A stretch of DNA of 64,000 nucleotides, taken from positions 62,001 through 126,000 of the forward strand of contig NZ_JAAAMH010000009.1 in the NCBI RefSeq assembly GCF_024105655.1, in the 5' to 3' direction. Source of the DNA: Aliihoeflea sp. 40Bstr573 (GTDB lineage: Bacteria; Pseudomonadota; Alphaproteobacteria; Rhizobiales; Rhizobiaceae). Position 1 is the first letter of the stretch. The number at the start of each line of letters is the position of its first letter. Shown in pieces: positions 3,531 through 64,000 of this stretch. The notes below the pieces were generated by a model. It was not told where the DNA came from, did not search any database, and saw only the letters and a list, made by a program, of their open reading frames with translations. A program made the translations under genes and the position numbers.

Positions 3531-5660
3531 ATGAACCAGCACGCTCCCGTTCGCATCGGCCATTCGGCCTGCCCGCATGATTGTCCGTCCACCTGCGCGC
3601 TCGACGTCGAAGTCGTCGACGGCAAGATCGGCCGTGTGCATGGCGCGAAAGAGAACAGCTACACGGCCGGCGTCATCTGCGCCAAGGTCGCGCGCTACGC
3701 CGAGCGCATTCACCACCCCGAACGTCTGTTAAAGCCGCTTGTGCGAGCCGGCGCAAAGGGTGATGGCAAGTGGAAGGAGGCGAGTTGGGAGGCCGCGCTC
3801 GACCTGATCGCCGAAAAGTTCGAGCTGGCGGAGGCAGGTCACGGCTCGGAATCCGTTTGGCCTTACTACTACGCTGGCACCATGGGCCTCGTTCAGCGCG
3901 ACGGCATCCATCGCCTGCGGCACGCGAAGAAATATTCCGGCTTCTTCGATACGATCTGCACAAACCTTGCCTGGACCGGCTGGGTCATGGGGGCTGGCAG
4001 CCTGACCGGCGTCGATCCACGCGAGATGGCGAAGTCGGACTGCGTCGTGATCTGGGGCACCAATGCCGTCGTCACGCAGGTCAACGTGATGACGCACGCG
4101 GTTCGGGCACGCAAGGAGCGCGGCGCGAAGATCGTCGTCATCGACGTCTACGACAACGCGACCATGAAGCAGGCCGATCTGGCGCTGATCCTGAAGCCTG
4201 GCACCGACGGCGCACTCGCCTGCGCTGTCATGCACGTCGTCTTCCGCGACGGCTTTGCCGACCGAGCCTATCTGGACAAGTACACGGACGATCCGAAAGG
4301 GCTCGAAGCGCATCTGGCGACGAGAACGCCGGAATGGGCGGCCGCCATCACAGGCCTGTCGGTCGCCGAGATCGAAGCCTTCGCGCGCCTCGTCGGCGAG
4401 ACGAAGCGCACCTTCTTCCGCTTAGGCTACGGCTTTACCCGCAGCCGCAACGGCGCGGCCAACATGCATGCCGCGCTTTCCATCCCGGCGGTCACTGGCG
4501 CCTGGCAGTACGAGGGCGGCGGCGCGTTCCACTCCAATTCGGACATCTTCAAGCTCGACAAGACCGAGCTCGAGGGCCGCCGCTTTCTCGACCCAAAAAT
4601 CCGGCATCTCGACCAGTCCAGGATCGGCGCGATCCTGACCAACGATCCTTCCGCGCTCAACGGCGGCCCGCCTGTCACCGCTATGCTGATCCAGAACACC
4701 AACCCGGCCAATGTGGCGCCCGAGCAGCGGTTGGTGAAGAAGGGCTTCCTGCGCGACGACCTTTTCACCGCCGTCCACGAGCATTTCATGACCGATACGG
4801 CGATGCTCGCCGACGTCGTCATTCCCGCGACCATGTTTCTGGAACATGACGACATCTATCGGGGGGGCGGGCAGAGCCACATCGTGCTCGGCCCAAAGGT
4901 TGTCGACGCGCCGGAAGGCCCGAAGACGAACCATTTCGTCATCGAGGAATTGGCAAAGCGGCTCGGTATCGCCGACTTGCCCGGCTTCGGCCTCACCGAG
5001 CGCCAACACATCGACCGCATGCTCGAAAAGCGTGGCCTTGGAACCTTCGAAACTTTCTCCGAAGAGCGCTGGGCCGACATGCAGCCCGATTTCGAAGCGG
5101 GGCATTTCATTCGTGGATTCGGCCATTCGGGTGGCAAATTTCGCTTCAAGCCGGACTGGACGGGCACCGTCGCGCCGGCAAAACCGCCGAAATCGATCGG
5201 TCTCATGGGGCGCTACAATGATTTGCCGGTGTTCCCGGACCATGTCGACCTGATCGAGAGCGCCGATCCGGCCCATCGGTTCCGCATGGCGACCTCGCCG
5301 GCACGGTCCTTCCTGAACTCGTCCTTCACCGAAATGCCGACCTCGCGCAAGCGCGAGGGACGTCCCGAGCTGATGCTTCATCCGGATGACGCGGCGGCCC
5401 TTGGAATTGCCGACGGCGACCGCATCGAGATTGGCAATGAGCGCGGCGAAGTCGTTCTGAACGCGAAGCTTTTCGACGGCGTGAAACGCGGCGTGGTCAT
5501 CGCCGAAGGCATCTGGCCGAACGCCTCGCACGAGCGCGGTGAGGGCATCAACGTCCTGACCGGTTCCGACGCCGCCGCCCCCTATGGCGGCGCCGCCTTC
5601 CACGACACCAAGGTCTGGTTGCGATCGGCACTACCCGCCGTGCCGCCTGCGACATCCTAG
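3531..5660 (+). CDS. molybdopterin-dependent oxidoreductase with an N-terminal [4Fe-4S] site
   Basis: The 709-residue protein belongs to the DMSO reductase superfamily. The N-terminus has the cysteine pattern of the iron-sulfur domain (CPHDCPSTC, then ICAK about 27 residues later). The catalytic domains follow (YYAGTMGLVQRDG, GTNAVVTQ, NTNPANVAPEQ), and a C-terminal molybdopterin-dinucleotide-binding beta-barrel (about 590-700, with LHPDDAAALGIADGDRIEI). No Tat signal is seen, so it is probably cytoplasmic. No small electron-transfer subunit or chaperone lies beside it, and the substrate cannot be assigned. A possible partner is the TRAP binding protein gene 100 bases downstream. Confidence 0.88.
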   Translation: MNQHAPVRIGHSACPHDCPSTCALDVEVVDGKIGRVHGAKENSYTAGVICAKVARYAERIHHPERLLKPLVRAGAKGDGKWKEASWEAALDLIAEKFELAEAGHGSESVWPYYYAGTMGLVQRDGIHRLRHAKKYSGFFDTICTNLAWTGWVMGAGSLTGVDPREMAKSDCVVIWGTNAVVTQVNVMTHAVRARKERGAKIVVIDVYDNATMKQADLALILKPGTDGALACAVMHVVFRDGFADRAYLDKYTDDPKGLEAHLATRTPEWAAAITGLSVAEIEAFARLVGETKRTFFRLGYGFTRSRNGAANMHAALSIPAVTGAWQYEGGGAFHSNSDIFKLDKTELEGRRFLDPKIRHLDQSRIGAILTNDPSALNGGPPVTAMLIQNTNPANVAPEQRLVKKGFLRDDLFTAVHEHFMTDTAMLADVVIPATMFLEHDDIYRGGGQSHIVLGPKVVDAPEGPKTNHFVIEELAKRLGIADLPGFGLTERQHIDRMLEKRGLGTFETFSEERWADMQPDFEAGHFIRGFGHSGGKFRFKPDWTGTVAPAKPPKSIGLMGRYNDLPVFPDHVDLIESADPAHRFRMATSPARSFLNSSFTEMPTSRKREGRPELMLHPDDAAALGIADGDRIEIGNERGEVVLNAKLFDGVKRGVVIAEGIWPNASHERGEGINVLTGSDAAAPYGGAAFHDTKVWLRSALPAVPPATS

Positions 5661-7598: not shown

Positions 7599-8659
7599 AG
7601 GTCGAGATGCCCGCGATAGACGACGCCGGTTTCGCGACGGGGCACGATGCGGCCGATGGTCATGACGTGTTCGCCTTCCTTCTGGAGGACGGCGGCGACC
7701 TGTGCCGCCTGTCCCGAGGCGACGACGAGGATCATGCCGACGCCGCAATTGAAGGTGCGCTTCATCTCGACGGATGCAACGCCGCCGGTTTCAGCGAGCC
7801 ACGAGAAGACAGGGGGAACGTCGATCGCGTTGAGGTCGAGTTCGGCCGCGAAATCCTTCGGCAGGACACGGGGAATGTTCTCCGGGAAACCGCCGCCGGT
7901 GATGTGGGCGAGCGCCTTGATGCCGTGGGTGGAACGGATCGCGGCGAGGATCGGCTTGACGTAGATGCGCGTGGGCTCGAGCAGCGCTTCGCCCAAGGAG
8001 CGACTCTTGTCGAACGGCGCCTTCGCATCCCAGTCGAGGCCGGAAAGCTCGACGATCTTGCGCACCAGCGAATAGCCGTTGGAATGGACGCCGGAGGAGG
8101 CGAGGCCGAGAATGACGTCGCCTTCGACGATGTCGTCGGTCGGCAGCAACTGGCCGCGCTCCGCCGCGCCGACCGCAAAGCCGGCGAGGTCATAGTCGCC
8201 GTCACGATACATGCCGGGCATTTCGGCCGTCTCCCCGCCGATCAGCGCGCAGCCTGCCTGGCGGCATCCCTCGGCTATGCCGGAGACAATGGCGGCGCCC
8301 TGGTCTGGATCGAGCTTGCCGGTCGCGAAGTAGTCGAGGAAGAACAGCGGCTCGGCGCCCTGCACGACGAGATCGTTGACGCACATGGCAACGAGGTCGA
8401 TGCCGACCGTATCGTGGATGCCCGCATCGATGGCGACCTTGAGCTTGGTGCCGACGCCGTCATTCGCTGCGACGAGCACCGGGTCGGTGAAACCTGCGGC
8501 CTTCAGGTCGAACAAGCCGCCAAAACCGCCGATCTCGCCGTCCGCGCCCGGCCGCCGCGTCGAGCGCACCATCGGCTTGATCTTCTCCACCAGCGTATTG
8601 CCTGCATCGATGTCGACGCCTGCCTGCGCGTAGGTGAGCCCGTTTTTCTGGTCGCTCAT
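7595..8659 (-). CDS. purM: phosphoribosylformylglycinamidine cyclo-ligase PurM
   Basis: The 354-residue product is AIR synthetase, which closes FGAM to AIR using ATP. The family signatures are clear: [14 protein letters not shown] at the N-terminus, [21 protein letters not shown] and [17 protein letters not shown]. The ATG at 8659 gives the family's usual length. It is the first gene of a purM-purN operon. The AI-2E family permease gene diverges from it to the right. Confidence 0.96.
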
Positions 8660-8841
8660 CTGCGAAACTCCGCTCCGGACAGCCTGCGCGAACTGCGTTG
8701 AACGACGGCTGCCCAAATTTCGTATGCCAATGCCCGCTCTTGGCACGAAGCACGGCTCTCCCGCAAGGCGAAGGCGTGTCCTCCTGCCACTTGACCACCG
8801 CAACCGCGCGCGCCTATGTCGTGAGCCTGCCCGAACAGCGG

Positions 8842-9987
8842 ATGACGAAGCGCATGACGACGCAAACGCCCACGCCTGCCGCCACGCCCGCACCGGCGCA
8901 GCCGCTGATGTCGCTGCGTCGCCAGGCCATGTTCTGGCTCGCAGCGGTCGTCGTCTTCGGCCTTTTTCTTTTCGTTTTCTCGTCCGTCCTGCTGCCCTTC
9001 TTCGCGGGCATGATCCTCGCCTATTTCCTCGATCCGGTAGCCGACTGGCTCGAGCGGCGCGGCCTGTCGCGCATCTGGGCAACCGTGCTGATCCTGATCT
9101 CGTTCGTGCTCCTGCTGGTGATCGGCCTTGCGGTCCTCGTCCCGATCCTAGCCAACCAGCTCGCCGAGTTCATCGAGCGCGTACCGGACTATTTCGCGCG
9201 GTTGCAGTCGCTCGTCACCTCGCTCGACTTCGAATGGCTCTCGTCGCGCATCGGCCTGGAGCCGGGCGGGCTGGAGGAGGGGATCAGTTCCATTTTCTCC
9301 GAAGGTTCGGGAATGGTCGCGACGCTGCTCGCGTCGATCTGGAGTGGTGGCCAGGCGCTGGTCGACGTCGTCGGGCTTCTGGTCGTCACGCCCGTCGTCG
9401 CCTTCTACATGCTTCTCGACTGGGACAAGATGGTCGCGCGCCTCGACCAGCTCGTGCCGCGCAACCATGTCGAGACCGTTCGCCAGATCGCTCGCGACAT
9501 TGATGCGTCGGTGGCCGGGTTCGTACGCGGGCAGGGCACGCTGTGCCTGATCCTGGGGGCGATGTATGCGGTCGGCCTGACCCTCGTCGGCCTGAATTTC
9601 GGTCTCCTGATCGGCATGTTCGCGGGGCTGATTTCGTTCATCCCGTATGTCGGATCTATGATCGGCCTCGTGCTGTCGGTGGGCGTCGCCTTCGTCCAGT
9701 TCTGGCCCGAATGGCACATGGTGGCGATCGTGGCGGCGATCTTCTTCGGCGGTCAGTTCATCGAGGGCAACATCCTTCAGCCCAATCTCGTCGGCAAAAG
9801 CGTCGGGCTTCACCCTGTATGGCTGATGTTCGCGCTCTTCGCTTTCGGCTATCTGTTCGGCTTCGTGGGGCTTCTGATCGCGGTGCCGGCTTCGGCAGCG
9901 GTGGCCGTGCTGGTGCGCTTCGCCATCAGCCGCTACGAGGCTTCGCCGCTCTACAGCGGCGGGCAAAAGCCGCTCGACCGGGGCTGA
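8842..9987 (+). CDS. AI-2E family transporter (PerM/YhhT-like permease)
   Basis: The protein of about 381 residues has the family's pattern of paired N-terminal helices ([32 protein letters not shown]), a soluble middle part, and four or more C-terminal helices ([51 protein letters not shown]). The conserved [10 protein letters not shown] motif is present. Members are inner membrane proteins of uncertain substrate; the name comes from TqsA and need not imply AI-2 transport. Start candidates are ATG 8842, ATG 8854 and GTG 8821, none with a strong ribosome binding site. hdaA starts four bases after its stop. Confidence 0.88.
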
Positions 9988-9991
9988 TCCC

Positions 9992-10669
9992 GTGACGCTC
10001 GCGCCAAGAAGACCGCAGCAGATCCCTCTCGATCTCGCGCATCGCCCGGCGACGAGCCGCGACGATCTCGTCCCCGGTGCGTCGATACTGCCTGCCTTGC
10101 ACCTGATAGATACCTATCCCGACTGGCCTGCGCCGGTTGTGGTGGTCGTCGGGCCGCGCGGCGCTGGAAAGACGCATCTGGCGGCCGCCTGGCAGGAGGT
10201 GACCGGTGCTGCCTCGCTCTCGATCGGCGGCATCGGCGCCGAGGCGCTGGACTGGGCCGAGCGCGGTCCGATCCTGGTCGACGATGCAGACCGTGCACCG
10301 ATCGACGAGACCGGCCTGTTCCATTTGATCAACGCGGTGCGCTCGTCCGGTACACACCTTCTGTTGACGGCCGCCATGCGCCCCGCCGTCTGGCCGGTCG
10401 GGTTGCCAGACCTCGTCTCGCGCCTGCGCGCGGCGGCAGTCGTGGAGATCGGCGCGCCGGACGACACGCTCCTCGCCGGTGTCCTGACCAAGCTCTTCGC
10501 GGACCGGCAGGTCGATGTCGATCCTGTCGTCATCCAGTACGTGGTCAAGCGAATGGAACGCTCGCTCGAAAGCGCGAATGCCGTTGTTGAGCGCCTAGAT
10601 TCTGCGGCCCTTGCGCGCAAGTCTCGCATCACCCGCACGCTTGCCGCAGAAGTCCTTGGCGAGGGCTGA
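9992..10669 (+). CDS. hdaA: DnaA-related regulatory protein HdaA
   Basis: The 225-residue protein resembles the AAA+ domain of DnaA without its DNA-binding domain. It has Walker A (GPRGAGKTHL, about 48-58) and Walker B (ILVDDAD). Near its N-terminus lies QIPLDL (residues 10-15), matching the sliding-clamp binding motif that Hda uses to dock on DnaN. In Caulobacter, HdaA drives hydrolysis of DnaA-ATP after replication starts. The start is GTG, four bases after the permease stop, so the two genes are one operon. In rhizobia hda commonly lies near ppk; here ppk is 9 kb away. Confidence 0.88.
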   Translation: MTLAPRRPQQIPLDLAHRPATSRDDLVPGASILPALHLIDTYPDWPAPVVVVVGPRGAGKTHLAAAWQEVTGAASLSIGGIGAEALDWAERGPILVDDADRAPIDETGLFHLINAVRSSGTHLLLTAAMRPAVWPVGLPDLVSRLRAAAVVEIGAPDDTLLAGVLTKLFADRQVDVDPVVIQYVVKRMERSLESANAVVERLDSAALARKSRITRTLAAEVLGEG

Positions 10670-10801
10670 CGTCCCAGCTCCCGCCCGCCTGACGGCGGTG
10701 CCACCGACAGGGGGCCGCCGGCAACTTGCCTAACCACCTGATCCTGTTGCGTATCGGCGATTTTCGACTACTGTTGTGCGAGCGTCATCATGGAGGGGGC
10801 C

Positions 10802-11011
10802 ATGCCGCTGCGTCGAAAAGCGGAGGAAGCAGGGATCATGTCGCCTGCCGAACTGGCGCTCCTGTCCCGCGTATACGCGGCGACGAAACGGGCCGGCGAG
10901 AACGAGACCGAACGCGAAGCGCGTGCGTCGCGCATTCTCGGCTATTACCTGGCTGGCATCGACGACGAAGACGAGCTCAAGACACTCGCGCGCCAGCCTT
11001 TGCAACGATAA
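10802..11011 (+). CDS. small conserved hypothetical protein
   Basis: The 69-residue product (MPLRRKAEEAGIMSPAELAL...) is charged, helical and without signal or membrane segment. Its ATG at 10802 has an ideal GGAGG at 10792-10796 with five bases of spacing; an ATG 12 bases upstream overlaps that site and is less likely. The ERxARASRILGYYLAGI segment followed by an acidic run looks like a rhizobial family of unknown function. It lies alone between hdaA and a tRNA gene on the other strand. Confidence 0.6.
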   Translation: MPLRRKAEEAGIMSPAELALLSRVYAATKRAGENETEREARASRILGYYLAGIDDEDELKTLARQPLQR

Positions 11012-11131
11012 TCCTCTTGAAGCGCGATCCGGACACGGCGAGCCAGCGCAGGATGTTCGAACTCGGACGGCCAGGCTCTCAAGGCTGGCGTAGAGGCGGT
11101 AAGAACATCTTTGAGGGCGTCGCGGTAGATT

Positions 11132-11207
11132 GGCGATCCCGGCAGGGCTCGAACCTGCGACCATCGGCTTAGAAGGCCGGTGCTCTATCCAACTGAGCTA
11201 CGGGACC
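11132..11207 (-). tRNA. tRNA-Arg (anticodon TCT)
   Basis: The minus strand folds into a full cloverleaf of 76 bases including an encoded CCA. The acceptor stem is GGTCCCG with CGGGATC, the T arm is GCAGG-TTCGAGC-CCTGC, and the anticodon loop is CTTCTAA, giving TCT. The outermost pair of the anticodon stem is a C-A mismatch. It decodes AGA, a rare arginine codon in this GC-rich genome. Confidence 0.95.
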
Positions 11208-11224
11208 GGAGTAAGCCCTTGGGC

Positions 11225-11530
11225 TCAGTGCGTCCAAGGAATCTTGCGATCGTAGCGAAAATTCTCGGCATAGGAAATCTGCCGGCGTCGCGCGTCCTTC
11301 GGCTCCTGAACGCGGAAGGCGATGCCGTTGCGCTCCGCATAGGCCACAGCTTCCTCGCGTGTTTCGAAGGTGAGACGAATCTGGCTCTTCATGTCGCCCG
11401 ACGAGGTATAGCCCATCAGGGGATCGATCTTGCGCGGCTGCTCGGGATCGAATTCGAGCACCCAGAAGCCGGTCTTGGCCTTGCCGGACTGCATCGCTGT
11501 CTTGGCGGGACTGAAGATACGTGCGGACAT
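11225..11530 (-). CDS. complex I accessory subunit, NDUFS4 homologue (ETC complex I subunit conserved region)
   Basis: The 101-residue product shows the NDUFS4 family pattern: RIFSPAKTAMQSG, WVLEFDPE, DPLMGYTSSGDM, LTFETREEAVAYAERNGI and a C-terminal SYAENFRYDRKIPWTH. In mitochondria this subunit sits on the peripheral arm of NADH:ubiquinone oxidoreductase; alphaproteobacteria keep a short version without the targeting peptide. It lies between two tRNA genes on the same strand, away from any nuo cluster, which is usual for these supernumerary subunits. Confidence 0.9.
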   Translation of the reverse strand: MSARIFSPAKTAMQSGKAKTGFWVLEFDPEQPRKIDPLMGYTSSGDMKSQIRLTFETREEAVAYAERNGIAFRVQEPKDARRRQISYAENFRYDRKIPWTH

Positions 11531-11554
11531 CGATCATACTCCATTCGGTCCGCG

Positions 11555-11631
<77 letters not shown>

Positions 11632-11708
11632 ATGGTCACGGCGGACGCAGCCTGCCTAGTGGGTCGGCAGGCCGTTCGCAAGGGGAAATCCGCAACCGGG
11701 TCGAATTC

Positions 11709-12875
11709 TCAAGGTTTGAGCGCGTCGAGCCCGGCCTCGATATCGGCCTTGATGTCGGCGACATCCTCCAGGCCGATCTGCAGGCGCAGCACCGGGCCCG
11801 GATAGTCGACCTTCGACACGGTGCGGTCGGCAAGGTTGACGTGGACGGCCAGGCTCTCGTAGCCGCCCCAGGAATAGCCGAGGCCAAAGAGCTTCAGGGC
11901 GTCGAGAAAGGCGTGCGCCTCTCGCTCGCCGCCGGACGCAAGAACGATCGAGAAGATGCCGCTCGAGCCAGAGAAATCTCGGGCCCAGATCGCGTGATCG
12001 GGATGGCTTTCGAGAGCGGGATGGAGAACCCGCGCCACCTCGTCGCGCGTTTCCAGCCAGCGGGCCAGCTCGAGCGCGCTTTGTTGGTGACGATCGAGCC
12101 GTACGCCCATGGTGCGAAGGCCGCGCAGTACCTGGTAGACGTCATCCGGGGCCGCGCACACGCCCATCGTCAGGTACGTGTCCCAAACTTGCTCCCAGCA
12201 ATCCTCGTTGGCCGAAACGGTGCCCAGGAGCACGTCCGAATGACCGGCCGGATATTTCGTTGCGGCATGAATCGAGACGTCGACGCCGTGGTCGAGCGGC
12301 TTGAAATAGAGGGGCGTCGCCCAGGTGTTGTCCATCATCACGATGGCGCCGCCGGCATGCGCGGCCTCCGCGATTGCGGGGATGTCCTGCATCTCGAACG
12401 TGTTGGAACCGGGCGCTTCGGTGAAGACGACCTTCGTATTCGCCTTCATCAGTGTGGCGATGCTGGCCCCAATTCGCGGGGCGTAGTACTCGACTTCGAT
12501 CCCGAGCCGCTTCAATACCGTATCGGCAAAGCGGCGGGTGGGATTGTAGATCGAATCGACGATTAGCACATGATCGCCCGCCGAAAGGAAGGCGAGGAGC
12601 GGGACCGTGACGGCTGCCAGCCCGGATGGCACGAGGATCGTGCCTGCCGAACCTTCGAGTTCGTTGATCGCGTTGCACAGCGCGTCGGACGTTGGTGTTC
12701 CGCGGGTGCCGTAAGTATATTTCTGATTGCGCGATGCCATGGTGGCCGCATCGGGGAACAGCACGGTCGAGGCGTGGACGACCGGCGGATTGACGAAGCC
12801 GAAATAGTCGCGCGGGTTGTTGCCGCCATGGGCAAGGCGGGTGTTGATACCTGTGCGATCGACATCGTTCTTCAT
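11709..12875 (-). CDS. metC: cystathionine beta-lyase MetC
   Basis: The 388-residue protein belongs to the Cys/Met metabolism PLP enzymes (fold type I). The PLP lysine is Lys207 in HAATKYPAGHSD, with Asp182 in VMMDNTW and Tyr/Arg phosphate contacts in YTYGTRGTPT. It converts cystathionine to homocysteine, pyruvate and ammonia in the methionine pathway. Length and motifs fit MetC better than gamma-synthase, though substrate choice in this family is hard to read from sequence. It diverges from the aap operon, a pairing known in rhizobia. Confidence 0.9.
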   Translation of the reverse strand: MKNDVDRTGINTRLAHGGNNPRDYFGFVNPPVVHASTVLFPDAATMASRNQKYTYGTRGTPTSDALCNAINELEGSAGTILVPSGLAAVTVPLLAFLSAGDHVLIVDSIYNPTRRFADTVLKRLGIEVEYYAPRIGASIATLMKANTKVVFTEAPGSNTFEMQDIPAIAEAAHAGGAIVMMDNTWATPLYFKPLDHGVDVSIHAATKYPAGHSDVLLGTVSANEDCWEQVWDTYLTMGVCAAPDDVYQVLRGLRTMGVRLDRHQQSALELARWLETRDEVARVLHPALESHPDHAIWARDFSGSSGIFSIVLASGGEREAHAFLDALKLFGLGYSWGGYESLAVHVNLADRTVSKVDYPGPVLRLQIGLEDVADIKADIEAGLDALKP

Positions 12876-13211
12876 GCATATCCACCATTGTTTTCAGTCT
12901 GGGCACGATCAATACGCGGCTGCACGAACTGGTGCAATGCAACGAGCCTGCCCATCCTCTGGGCAAAGCGCGCGCCAGAGGCGGCATCGGGGAAGATGGC
13001 CGATCGATGACGGGCCGATAGGTCCAGTGGTGCTTTCAGGCTTGACCCAGCAAAATTTATGGCCTTCGATGGCCTTTGTGAATGGGAGACAGGGCAGGGG
13101 TGCCGGCGGCGCCGGACATCGATTACGGCGCATGTGGCCGCCTCGGCGGCTCCCATACAAGAGAAGACGGGGCATAAGGAACATGCTTCGAAAACAAGAG
13201 GGTAGTGGGAA
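12876..13211. other. intergenic region between divergent metC and aapJ
   Basis: These 336 bases hold the promoters of both metC and aapJ. A TTGACC at 13041-13046 is a possible -35 for aapJ, but no convincing -10 follows. An inverted repeat TGCAC-N6-GTGCA lies at 12921-12936 on the metC side and could be an operator. No coding sequence, riboswitch or RNA gene was recognised. Confidence 0.5.
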
Positions 13212-14240
13212 ATGAAGAAGTTTATGGTGGGAATTCTCGGCGGCGCCGCGCTGTCGCTCGGTGCGACGGCCGCTTCGGCTGCGACCCTCGACGACGTGAA
13301 GGCGAAGGGCTTCGTCCAGTGCGGTGTCCACACCGGCCTCGCCGGCTTTGCCGCCCCGGATGACGCTGGCGACTGGACCGGTTTCGACGTCGACATGTGT
13401 CGCGCCGTTGCCGCCGCCGTCTTCGGCGATGCCGATGCCGTGCAGTACACGCCGACCAACGCGACCGAGCGCTTCACCGCGCTGCAGTCGGGCGAAATCG
13501 ACCTGCTTGCGCGCAACACGACCTGGACGTTGACGCGCGACACCACGCTCGGCCTGACCTTCGCAGGCGTCAACTACTATGACGGCCAGGGCTTCATGAT
13601 CAACCAGACCAAGCTGCCGGACATCAACTCCGCCATGCAGCTTTCCGGGGCGGCAATCTGCGTCCAGTCCGGTACGACGACCGAACTCAACCTCGCCGAC
13701 TACTTCGCGGCCAACAACATGGAATACAACCCGGTTGTCTTCCAGGGCTTCGACGAGACCAACGCGGCCTATGAAGCTGGCCGTTGCGACGCCTACACGA
13801 CTGACGCCTCGGGCCTCTACGCGCTTCGCCTGACGCTCGCCAACCCGGACGAGCACGTCGTTCTGCCGGAGATCATCTCGAAGGAGCCGCTCGGACCTGC
13901 CGTCCGCCAGGGCGACGACCAGTGGTTCAACATCGTAAAGTGGACGCTTTACGCGATGATCCAGGCCGAAGAACTCGGAATCACGTCGGAAAACCTCGAA
14001 GAGATGATGACTTCGGAGAGCCCGGAGATCCGTCGCGTCCTCGGACTTGAGGATGAATCGACCATCGGCCAGGGCCTCGGCCTCGAAAACGACTGGGTTC
14101 AGGCGATCGTCCGCGAAGTCGGCAATTACGGCGAAGTGTTCGACCGCAACATCGGCAGCGGCAGCCCGCTTGCCATCGCGCGCGGTCTGAACGCGCTTTG
14201 GACCGATGGCGGCCTGCAGTACGCGATGCCGATCCGCTAA
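13212..14240 (+). CDS. aapJ: general L-amino acid ABC transporter, periplasmic binding protein AapJ
   Basis: The 342-residue protein has a Sec signal (residues 1-23, ending ASA) and the family 3 solute-binding fold. Typical segments are VKAKGFVQCGVHTGLAGFA, GFDVDMCRAVAAAVFGD (the family signature), LARNTTWTLTRDT and YTTDASGLYALR. AapJ feeds a broad range of L-amino acids to AapQM. Two cysteines (Cys in QCGV and DMCR) are conserved in this subfamily. It is the first gene of aapJQMP, with a stem-loop separating it from aapQ. Confidence 0.94.
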   Translation: MKKFMVGILGGAALSLGATAASAATLDDVKAKGFVQCGVHTGLAGFAAPDDAGDWTGFDVDMCRAVAAAVFGDADAVQYTPTNATERFTALQSGEIDLLARNTTWTLTRDTTLGLTFAGVNYYDGQGFMINQTKLPDINSAMQLSGAAICVQSGTTTELNLADYFAANNMEYNPVVFQGFDETNAAYEAGRCDAYTTDASGLYALRLTLANPDEHVVLPEIISKEPLGPAVRQGDDQWFNIVKWTLYAMIQAEELGITSENLEEMMTSESPEIRRVLGLEDESTIGQGLGLENDWVQAIVREVGNYGEVFDRNIGSGSPLAIARGLNALWTDGGLQYAMPIR

Positions 14241-14258
14241 GCGAGATCGGACTGGCAT

Positions 14259-14282
14259 CGGGAGGCGGTAATCCGCCTCCCG
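14259..14282 (+). terminator. intercistronic stem-loop between aapJ and aapQ
   Basis: A perfect 10-bp stem (14259-14268 with 14273-14282) and TAAT loop is followed by TTCTCTTT, a weak T tract. Such hairpins after binding-protein genes in ABC operons either protect the upstream mRNA or end part of the transcripts, so that the binding protein is made in excess. That role here is inferred. Confidence 0.75.
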
Positions 14283-14304
14283 TTCTCTTTGGCGCGGAGG
14301 GAAA

Positions 14305-15495
14305 ATGGCTTCGCAGATGAGTGTGCGCGCCGAAGAGCCCGCACAAGTTTCCTGGGTGAATGATCCCAAGACGCGCGGCATCGTCGTTCAGGTCGTCGTC
14401 GCGGTTGCGCTGATCGGTTTCATCTACTGGATCATCGGCAACACGGCTGAAAACCTGCGGCGCGCGAACATCGCGTCCGGCTTCGGCTTCCTGTCTGGAC
14501 GTGCAGGCTTCGATCTGAGCCAGTCGATGATCCCCTATTCCTCGAACTCGACCTTCCTGCGGGCGATCACCGTTGGCCTTCTGAACACCATGCTCGTGGC
14601 GATCACAGGCATCATCACGGCGACGATCGTCGGTTTTCTCATCGGTCTCGGGCGTCTGTCGCGTAACTGGCTGATCGGACGCATTTGCACCGTTTATGTG
14701 GAGGTCTTCCGCAACATCCCGCCGCTGCTCGTTATTTTCTTCTGGTATGTCGGTGTTCTGGCCGTCCTGCCCGGACCGCGTCAGTCAGTCGATCTGCCCT
14801 TTGGCGGCATGATCAACAATCGCGGGTTCTATATGCCGCGCATCATCGCCGAACCGGGCTTCTGGCTTGTTCCGGCAGCGTTCGCACTGGCCGTGGTCGC
14901 GCTGATCGGGATCGTCGTTTGGGCGCGTCGCCGTCAGATGGCAACCGGTCAGACATTTCCGACCGTCAGGGTTGGCTTGGCACTCTTGATCGGACTGCCT
15001 GTCATTGCCTTTCTCATCACGGGTAGCCCGGCAACGATCGAATATCCTGAAATGGCAGGCTTCAGTCTGCAAGGCGGCTGGGTGGTGCGGCCGGAATTCC
15101 TGTCGCTGTATCTGGCGTTGTCGCTCTATACCGCCTCTTTCATTGCCGAGATCGCCCGCGCGGGCGTCCTCGGGGTTGCCAAGGGGCAGTCGGAAGCTTC
15201 GTATTCGCTCGGGATTTCGCCCCGTCGCACCCTGCGGCTGGTCGTCGTGCCGCAGGCGCTTCGGATCATCATCCCGCCATTGACGAGCCAGTATCTGAAC
15301 CTGACCAAGAACTCGTCGCTCGCGATTGCCGTCGGTTATGCCGACTTGGTCGCGATCGGGCAGACGACCATGAACCAGACCGGTCAGGCGATCGAAGTCG
15401 TCGCCATCTGGATCGTCGTTTATCTCGGTCTCAGCCTGCTCACCTCGGCCTTCATGAACTGGTACAACGCCAAGATGGCGCTGGTGGAGAGGTAA
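14305..15495 (+). CDS. aapQ: general L-amino acid ABC transporter permease AapQ
   Basis: The 396-residue inner membrane protein is a HisM/GlnP-type permease with about eight membrane segments. Characteristic stretches are [48 protein letters not shown] and, near the C-terminus, the EAA loop [18 protein letters not shown] that contacts the ATPase. An extended middle section (about 160-250), longer than in ordinary polar amino acid permeases, is typical of AapQ/BztB. GGAGGG precedes the ATG. Its stop is five bases before aapM. Confidence 0.93.
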
Positions 15496-63543: not shown

Positions 63544-63588
63544 TGGTCGGAGCGGCGGGATTCGAACCCACGACCCCTTGACCCCCAG
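63544..63588 (-). other. attachment site: 3' part of a tRNA-Pro(GGG) gene (island left border)
   Basis: On the minus strand these 45 bases give the encoded CCA, the 3' acceptor strand CGGAGCG, a normal T arm, the variable loop, the 3' side of the anticodon stem and a CTGGGGG loop with anticodon GGG. From 63589 the sequence (ATTGAGAA...) no longer matches the 5' side of the stem, so the 5' half is missing. A partial tRNA next to an integrase is the sign of site-specific insertion; the intact gene should lie at the far end of the island. No gene is seen between 63589 and the integrase. Confidence 0.85.
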
Positions 63589-63705
63589 ATTGAGAAATCT
63601 GCTTTGAACAAGCCGCCTCTTCTTTCATTGAGCGGATAACCGCTTGAATTCACTGTATGCCAGCCTTAACGTCTTTCACGTAAGCGCCAGCTTCTTTCCG
63701 ATTTG

Positions 63706-63725
63706 GTGCTTATTATGTGCTTATT
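63706..63725 (+). repeat. two 9-bp direct repeats near the integrase start, candidate arm-type sites
   Basis: GTGCTTATT occurs at 63706-63714 and again at 63717-63725, eleven bases apart, about one helical turn. They lie about 50 bases upstream of the integrase ATG. Short, helically phased repeats at this place are typical arm-binding sites of tyrosine recombinases. Confidence 0.5.
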
Positions 63726-63773
63726 TTCCTGCGCGAAGCGGGAATGGCAGGAAGGCCGGGGGTTGGCGACGAC

Positions 63774-64000
63774 ATGGCGATGATCACGAAGAAGGCGGTC
63801 GAGACCGCGCCCATAACGGGGTCGAGCTACTTCCTATGGGATGCCGGCGACGGGGCGGTTAAGGGCTTCGGATGCAACATCACCGCGCAGGGGAAGCGCA
63901 CCTTTGTCGCGCAATTCCGCATCGGCTCCGGCCGCAGCGCGAAATCTAAGCGCGTCACCATCGGCCCCTTTGGAACGTGGACCGTGGACAAGGCGCGTGA
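63774..64000 (+). CDS. int: tyrosine-recombinase integrase, N-terminal arm-binding domain (partial, runs off the window)
   Basis: The frame from ATG 63774 is open to the last base (about 75 residues visible). It reads MAMITKKAVETAPI, then SSYFLWDAGDGAVKGFGCNI, TAQGKRTFVAQFRIGSG and RVTIGPFGTWTVDKAR. This is the DUF4102-type arm-DNA-binding domain found at the N-terminus of P4- and island-type integrases. The catalytic domain (with the Arg, His and Tyr) lies beyond the window. The nearby tRNA fragment is its probable target. An alternative ATG is at 63780. Confidence 0.85.
   Translation, partial: MAMITKKAVETAPITGSSYFLWDAGDGAVKGFGCNITAQGKRTFVAQFRIGSGRSAKSKRVTIGPFGTWTVDKAR

Follow-up and report, generated by a model that had tools for sequence, protein, structure and literature searches.

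That phage satellites can control tail assembly was presented as a new finding in 2026, for a single Vibrio family, in a paper that also notes tape-measure genes in some other satellites, among them capsid-forming phage-inducible chromosomal islands (cf-PICIs) that carry tmp genes (PMC12987554, the latter in the legend to its Extended Data Fig. 10). As described there, PLE11, a PICI-like element of Vibrio cholerae, encodes a tape-measure protein (TMP), a tail assembly chaperone (TAC) and a hub protein of its own and makes chimeric tails: in its virions, the TMP and the hub protein come from the satellite and the rest of the tail from the helper, and deletion of tmp lowers transfer by ~99.9% (PMC12987554). 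At the head, the cos-type Staphylococcus aureus pathogenicity island (SaPI) SaPIbov5 is described as encoding Ccm, a homologue of the capsid protein through which the shell is redirected to another shape (PMC8569155), and cf-PICIs, which average 14 kb (PMC10803314), as bringing their own capsid, portal, protease, connectors and both terminase subunits (PMC10690885). PICIs are described from many Firmicutes and Gammaproteobacteria (PMC10803314). Here, we describe an element of an alphaproteobacterium, Aliihoeflea sp. 40Bstr573 (genome G000), whose left end lies at the right edge of a 64,000-nucleotide stretch (the window; positions 62001-126000 of contig C69, NZ_JAAAMH010000009.1, 176,433 bases). 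We read it, with a probability of about 0.72, as an integrative phage satellite, complete at 12,988 bases and inserted in tRNA-Pro(GGG), belonging to a family of Hyphomicrobiales (Rhizobiales) elements marked by a 290-residue protein, p290, and forming chimeric virions with the help of a myophage. Positions beyond the window are given on the 18-kb locus L004 (C69:124001-142000; window coordinate = L004 + 62000).

The left border of the element is a 45-base leftover of the 3′ half of the host tRNA-Pro(GGG) gene (attL; window 63544-63588, minus strand; L004 1544-1588). Its plus-strand letters, TGGTCGGAGCGGCGGGATTCGAACCCACGACCCCTTGACCCCCAG, are the reverse complement of the tRNA 3′ half, the first base being, by eye, the start of the anticodon loop. 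ARAGORN called two other tRNAs in the window and left this piece uncalled, as expected for a tRNA fragment. A genome search returned a second copy of the core at C69:138532-138576 (42/45 identical, 93%; E 4.6e-12), which sits within an intact tRNA-Pro with anticodon GGG (L004 14532-14608, minus strand; attR, 14532-14576). The two copies form the sole direct ungapped 45-base pair in L004 with at least 34 identities and a distance of at least 200 bases, and the element measures 12,988 bases from attL to the far-end intact tRNA (right border, L004 14576). The window holds just its first 457 bases, with the remainder beyond the window end.

A tyrosine integrase gene begins 186 bases past the tRNA fragment, at window 63774 on the plus strand as placed here (earliest in-frame start codon, 63717). 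The first 227 bases of the gene lie within the window (63774-64000), and the frame runs past its edge to a complete 449-residue protein (L004 1774-3123) with Pfam matches to Phage_integrase (E 1.9e-18) and Arm-DNA-bind_3 (E 5.5e-9). The stretches holding R..K..HxxR..H..Y, which we take to be the catalytic motif, were all found and in the correct order. The initial annotation of the window had placed a minus-strand tRNA-Pro(GGG) 3′ fragment ending at the anticodon loop here, with an integrase start less than 190 bases away and an island extending rightward to a complete copy of the tRNA; all of this was borne out, and the far-end tRNA does share the core, just as the integrase frame is full-length with its catalytic stretches rather than short and non-catalytic. 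What that annotation had called a genomic island looks, by its content, like a phage satellite and not like a generic island.

The comparison with island-free relatives that had also been proposed confirmed the insertion. In two genomes of the same genus (G001 and G002), tRNA-Pro(GGG) is intact, the left and right host flanks directly adjoin, and none of the island proteins was found within the 19 kb fetched around the site. The tRNA 3′ half of G002 is identical to the leftover fragment (45/45), that of G001 differs from both the leftover and the island-borne version, and the leftover and the intact tRNA of G000 differ at three bases. The intact G000 tRNA is in turn identical over 77 bases to the right-end tRNA of a related island in a sister species, Mesorhizobium sp. 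YIM 152430 (G004). Thus, the left copy is the host original and the 3′ half on the right is island-borne. Integration thus exchanged the T arm of the host tRNA-Pro(GGG) for a compensatorily paired variant, and the island's own 3′ half in place of that of the host is a visible signature of integration. By reading, two of the three changes together swap one base pair of the T stem in a compensatory way, and the third lies in the T loop. The tRNA-Pro site seems to be used by other islands too: in two loci of the same bacterial family, L068 (G035:C9) and L069 (G020:C4), a tRNA-Pro 3′ fragment is 91-93% identical to the island-borne version, and the integrases beside these fragments are only 37-41% identical to that of the G000 island. 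In a further genome, G003, the contig stops 135 bases from tRNA-Pro(GGG) (L067, G003:C22:1-136), and island status there is unreadable.

Within these borders, 19 frames were scanned against Pfam and PHROG. The centre of the element is occupied by phage-type assembly genes, all on the plus strand: a 777-residue TMP (PhageMin_Tail, PF10145, E 9.3e-38; L004 5347-7680), whose closest match is in Paracoccus phage vB_PyeM_Pyei1 (42% identity over 77%); a first TAC_7 tail assembly chaperone (7674-7970; 6.6e-13); a helix-turn-helix (HTH) frame (7971-8264; 1.5e-5, below cut-off) directly upstream of p290 (8338-9210); p186, a probable scaffold (9210-9770); a 344-residue major capsid protein of the Cap_E family (PF03864, 2.9e-89; 9773-10807); and a second TAC_7 chaperone (10953-11246; 1.6e-9). 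Near the integrase lie an HTH_17 protein, which by family name would be an AlpA-type regulator (3851-4102, plus strand; 2.7e-9), and a DUF1376 frame resembling replication initiators (about 4200-4919, plus strand; 2.2e-7; phrog_9327, 9.7e-16), so that the family names point to a regulator and a replication gene of the element's own. None of the 19 frames matched a terminase, portal, tail tube, sheath, baseplate or lysis family. A discrete element with an integrase, att repeats and a sub-phage size, in which no terL, portal, baseplate or lysis family is recognised, has the general features of a satellite.

The G000 copy of p290 matches no Pfam or PHROG family. When nine members were run against PHROG, the best result was one member against an SbcC-like family (E 1e-7), which we read as coiled-coil likeness and rejected as an identity. 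An AlphaFold model of the Rhizobium sp. Root274 homologue is nearly all helix (mean predicted local distance difference test, pLDDT, 78.9; predicted template modelling score, pTM, 0.63; residues 183-217 below pLDDT 50), and neither PDB nor BFVD gave a fold match at E 0.001.

Among 394 same-family genomes, a four-row p290 profile had matches in 18 at E 0.001; ten of these reached 1e-6 or better, and the other eight scored just 1.6e-5 to 6.5e-4. With a nine-row profile at E 1e-6, matches were obtained in 12/397 same-order, 3/367 same-class and 2/378 same-phylum genomes, each count including G000 itself, and a GTDB pattern scan, built on two short patterns and limited in reach, gave four loci in Mesorhizobium sp. 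YIM 152430 (two), Aminobacter sp. AP02 and Rhizobium sp. Root274. The elements are found mostly in the same order, chiefly in soil bacteria of the rhizobia-like kind. Direct repeats flank eight of the 18 elements examined and span 11.3-15.4 kb; this tally comprises the G000 element, seven of 11 others with extended flanks (none for G055, G726, G172 and G623d) and none of six for which the stretch at hand was used (L132, L135, L136, L138, L145 and the cut L020). Six of the eight repeat-flanked elements sit in tRNA genes (Pro, Val in three cases, Asn and Met); the 15.4-kb span is defined by a weak repeat of 20 bases, and another, of 14.9 kb, by a repeat of 17 bases that involves no tRNA. L140, which matches p290 weakly and lies outside the family set, has a 21-base repeat at tRNA-Met (span 14.1 kb). 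One genome, G623, holds five p290 copies, and four of these five elements have repeats. On its contig C6 (L165-L169), three elements have repeats at tRNA-Val (two) and tRNA-Asn, another has a short repeat without a tRNA, and one stands beside tRNA-Ser with no repeat found. Taken together, p290 marks a family of 11-15-kb elements, and the element, the family and its mobility are well supported.

We compared 30 family loci (29 elements, L020 and L066 being two halves of one) with 44 phage loci carrying Cap_E, using iterated profiles. The family loci were selected by p290 or as adjoining it, and four of them (L137, L138, L177 and L178) have weak p290 matches (E 2e-7 to 2.5e-11); of the 21 p290 rows from the four-row profile, G291 and G294 were excluded as weak, as were six weaker rows, and two further p290 genomes (G777 and G1085) lie outside the set. 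On the phage side, 40 of 50 Cap_E places were fetched, the other ten being the G000 and G055 elements, one more in G183, four more in G084 and partial ones in G054, G009 and G096; four of ten IMG/VR loci were used.

The large terminase profile and the portal profile each matched none of the 30 family loci, whereas each matched 41 of the 44 phage loci. Conversely, p290 (29/30, a figure fixed by design), an integrase (25/30), the HTH upstream of p290 (8/30) and p168, a right-end protein of the G000 element (6/30), were found in 0, 1, 0 and 0 of the 44 phage loci, respectively. A TMP is present in 16/30 family and 19/44 phage loci, a protease/scaffold protein in 12/30 versus 37/44 and a decoration protein in 3/30 versus 39/44, and short scaffold-only frames of 86-228 residues occur in 8/30 family loci. 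Homologues of the phage-type small terminase, defined as the phage frame beside terL and identified by homology since Pfam left the HTH unnamed, are present in 11/30 family and 9/44 phage loci. In total, 24 of the 30 family loci carry at least one of the structural or small-terminase genes sought.

These counts bear on two other explanations. A decayed prophage, having lost its packaging, tail and lysis genes and retaining head and tail genes as debris, would explain why the TMP, chaperones and capsid protein are of phage type, with numerous relatives among complete phages, why some family loci keep few structural genes, and why no resident helper of the type sought was found. We consider it improbable and set it aside on two grounds, the p290 census and the existence of intact relatives of similar size: the Root274 p290 homologue found nothing at E 0.01 among 50,697 phage records, p290 recurs across the family loci with the integrase and in part with the HTH and small terminase, and p290 and its upstream HTH are missing from all 44 phage loci, so that the gene set is no subset of a phage genome. 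Moreover, the frames are intact, and relatives of similar size with clean att repeats exist in other genomes. A generic integrative island that picked up some phage genes accidentally and spreads along another route would fit the differences in structural gene sets between members. Against it, and rendering it highly improbable, int, HTH, p290, scaffold, small terminase and TMP are repeatedly associated across several bacterial families, no conjugation family turned up among the 19 island frames scanned, and the same p290 homologue found nothing at E 0.01 among 72,556 plasmid records.

TMPs were longer in the family loci (16, median 836 residues) than in the phage loci (18, median 677; Mann-Whitney p 0.001, or 0.003 after removal of two of three near-identical G623 copies), the opposite of a short-tail expectation. 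The comparison covers only phage TMPs that lie within the fetched stretch and match the satellite profile, and because this phage sample is biased we draw no conclusion on length.

Phylogenies indicated where the structural genes came from. The three family capsid proteins do not cluster: the Aminobacter one pairs with phage locus L095 (support 100/94), with the G000 protein as neighbour of this pair (87/81), and supported branches force at least three changes between family and phage labels. The TMP tree has six label changes, at least five of them forced. These interleaved trees imply repeated exchange of capsid and TMP genes between phages and satellites, with part of the family retaining a lineage of its own. 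The same observation bears on a satellite whose capsid and tail proteins, instead of entering virions, would chiefly act against helper or competitor phages, as decoys or dominant-negative inhibitors. Tail-assembly interference is described as a known defence of PICIs, prophages and P4-like satellites (PMC11364771), the structural genes kept differ between members, and there are defence candidates among the cargo: PADLOC matched three of ten cargo-type proteins, all from elements other than that of G000, namely PDC-M53A and PDC-M53B in Aminobacter sp. AP02 and an Aga nuclease in Rhizobium sp. Root274, which are thus candidate defence genes. We hold the decoy function to be rather unlikely, as the capsid and TMP frames are full-length and typical, gene exchange with phages fits helper matching, and TMP and TAC are paired as in PLE11, where the TMP is described as entering virions (PMC12987554).

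The related island of G004 occupies the same tRNA, and the assembly splits the element over contigs C35 and C19. DNA identity between the two islands is ~90% in the module of replication and DUF6074 genes and 89% in the right-end module. Synonymous divergence (dS) is 0.13-0.50 in six of 11 shared genes (rep, DUF6074, the first chaperone, p168 and two right-end frames), below the 0.76 of the adjacent host gene; these modules therefore moved between the species after the species split. In nine of the 11 shared genes, the ratio of nonsynonymous to synonymous polymorphism (pN/pS) is 0.22-0.46, and most shared genes accordingly appear to be under purifying selection, a further point against a decaying prophage. 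G004 has a second p290 element (L021, G004:C51), in which no tyrosine integrase was recognised and which adjoins a frame resembling, by eye, the C-terminal part of a serine recombinase. Both p290 contigs of this genome break at or just past p290, as though there were an assembly repeat.

Several observations weigh against a satellite that forms chimeric virions. The capsid protein was found in just 3/30 family loci versus 37/44 phage loci, and in six of the 30 family loci neither a small terminase nor any structural gene was recognised among those sought. The terminase and portal profiles start from one type and missed three phage loci (L096, L097 and L100), which are, by eye, phages with other terminase and portal types, so these profiles are not exhaustive. 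For the G000 element itself, the small-terminase profile gave nothing below E 0.19. The scaffold call is weak as well: p186 scored best of the L004 frames (E 5.2e-6; next, 0.034) when these were compared with a profile built on the C-terminal scaffold segment of phage head proteases, and is probably a scaffold-like protein. A search of G000 for a helper of the Cap_E/GpA type yielded one Cap_E and one PhageMin_Tail match, both the island's, and no GpA_ATPase; a resident helper prophage is rejected for these three markers, other helper types being outside this search. The sole IMG/VR contig found with p290 is the Aminobacter element, 100% identical over 13,759 bases. The six label changes in the TMP tree compare with a mean of 11.7 under shuffled labels, with 1/500 shuffles as low; TMPs thus cluster beyond shuffled labels, implying limited exchange with phages, and the small terminase tree is compatible with one origin in the family. 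Between G000 and G004, dS reaches 1.25-2.28 in five of the 11 shared genes (integrase, first HTH, TMP, p290 and zinc protein), above the host value, so that the islands are mosaic and do not reflect one recent whole transfer. For TMP and p290, pN/pS against the G004 copy is 0.75 and 0.71 at near-saturated sites; both are too diverged for a clear ratio, and selection on them is therefore not shown.

Mosaicism is usual for satellites, and the family evidence is independent of the high-dS genes, the clustering of TMPs, the limits of the terminase profiles and the att tally; these points therefore leave the odds of the satellite reading unchanged.

Under that reading, a helper myophage would infect or be induced, whereupon the AlpA-type regulator and the integrase would excise the element, which would then replicate from its own initiator. 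The element's scaffold and capsid protein may redirect or replace part of the helper head shell, and its TMP and chaperones could substitute for the helper's tail ruler. Portal, packaging motor, tail tube and sheath, baseplate and lysis would be supplied by the helper, and the element would consequently leave in chimeric virions; in other family members, the small terminase would steer packaging toward their own DNA. The TAC_7 chaperones and the TMP match to vB_PyeM_Pyei1 suggest a contractile-tailed helper. We infer induction, replication, chimeric assembly and a role of p290 from the gene content, the assembly step by analogy with PLE11 and the Ccm protein of SaPIbov5. More tentatively, and at somewhat less than even odds, the family may represent alphaproteobacterial satellites with doubly chimeric virions, in which their own head shell and/or scaffold and a tail ruler with chaperones are combined with the portal, motor, tube, sheath and baseplate of the helper, p290 acts as a satellite-specific assembly or packaging factor, and structural genes are swapped with phages to match helpers.

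The remaining genes of the G000 element lie between and beyond these modules. On the plus strand are a 217-residue protein without Pfam, PHROG or PADLOC match (L004 3124-3777), the DUF6074 frame (about 4849-5265; 1.2e-4, below cut-off), an endonuclease VII-like zinc protein (11538-11939; phrog_1035, 1.5e-10, partial) and p168 (12302-12808; start uncertain); on the minus strand follow proteins of ~130 (12805-13197), 119 (13227-13586) and 243 residues (13644-14375). PADLOC found no match among the right-end genes of this island. The 243-residue gene has a distant phage relative (phrog_36906, 7.4e-7) and is not in the G004 copy, where the counterpart slot holds a different gene (L066 3127-4152), 48% identical to a DUF2971 protein in L132. 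This right-end position is a candidate cargo slot.

The family places the TMP and chaperone pairing of the Vibrio satellites in apparently separate elements of another bacterial class, and the G000 copy adds a capsid protein and a likely scaffold without a detected portal or large terminase. This makes it testable how a satellite mixes its own head and tail parts with those of a helper, and whether replacement of the tail ruler is a general strategy; with p290 as a marker, such elements are readily found. Searches of open PMC papers for phage satellites in Alphaproteobacteria, Rhizobium, Agrobacterium or Sphingomonas gave no listing that resembles the p290 family, subscription papers and preprints being outside the scope of these searches.

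PICIs typically have int, an AlpA-like HTH, a replication gene, a small terminase and cargo genes. The p290 family resembles them, including the EcCI type, in int, AlpA-like HTH, replication gene and cargo, and in the small terminase of many members. The G000 element differs in its p290, its Cap_E, TMP and TAC genes and its alphaproteobacterial host, and no small terminase was recognised in it. With cf-PICIs, as they are described, it shares the size class, an own capsid protein and, in some of them, a tape measure, whereas the p290 family has a large terminase and portal in none and a capsid protein in 3 of 30 loci. Like PLE11, the G000 element is integrated, encodes its own TMP and TAC and is no complete phage. 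Chimeric tails on a contractile-tailed helper are demonstrated for PLE11. PLE11 virions are described with helper capsid proteins, whereas the G000 element encodes a Cap_E capsid and a scaffold-like protein; the hosts belong to different orders, and the likeness to PLEs is one of gene content. SaPIbov5 likewise has a lone major-capsid homologue and is described as using the helper's other head parts, but its host is Staphylococcus, and no satellite tape measure or chaperone was seen in its description (PMC8569155). The G000 element unites a TMP and TAC pair of the PLE11 kind with a capsid homologue of the SaPIbov5 kind and a probable scaffold. We therefore file the p290 family as a new family-level variant of phage satellites, set apart from cf-PICIs and PICIs by the features tested, some elements of which may already be in published surveys.
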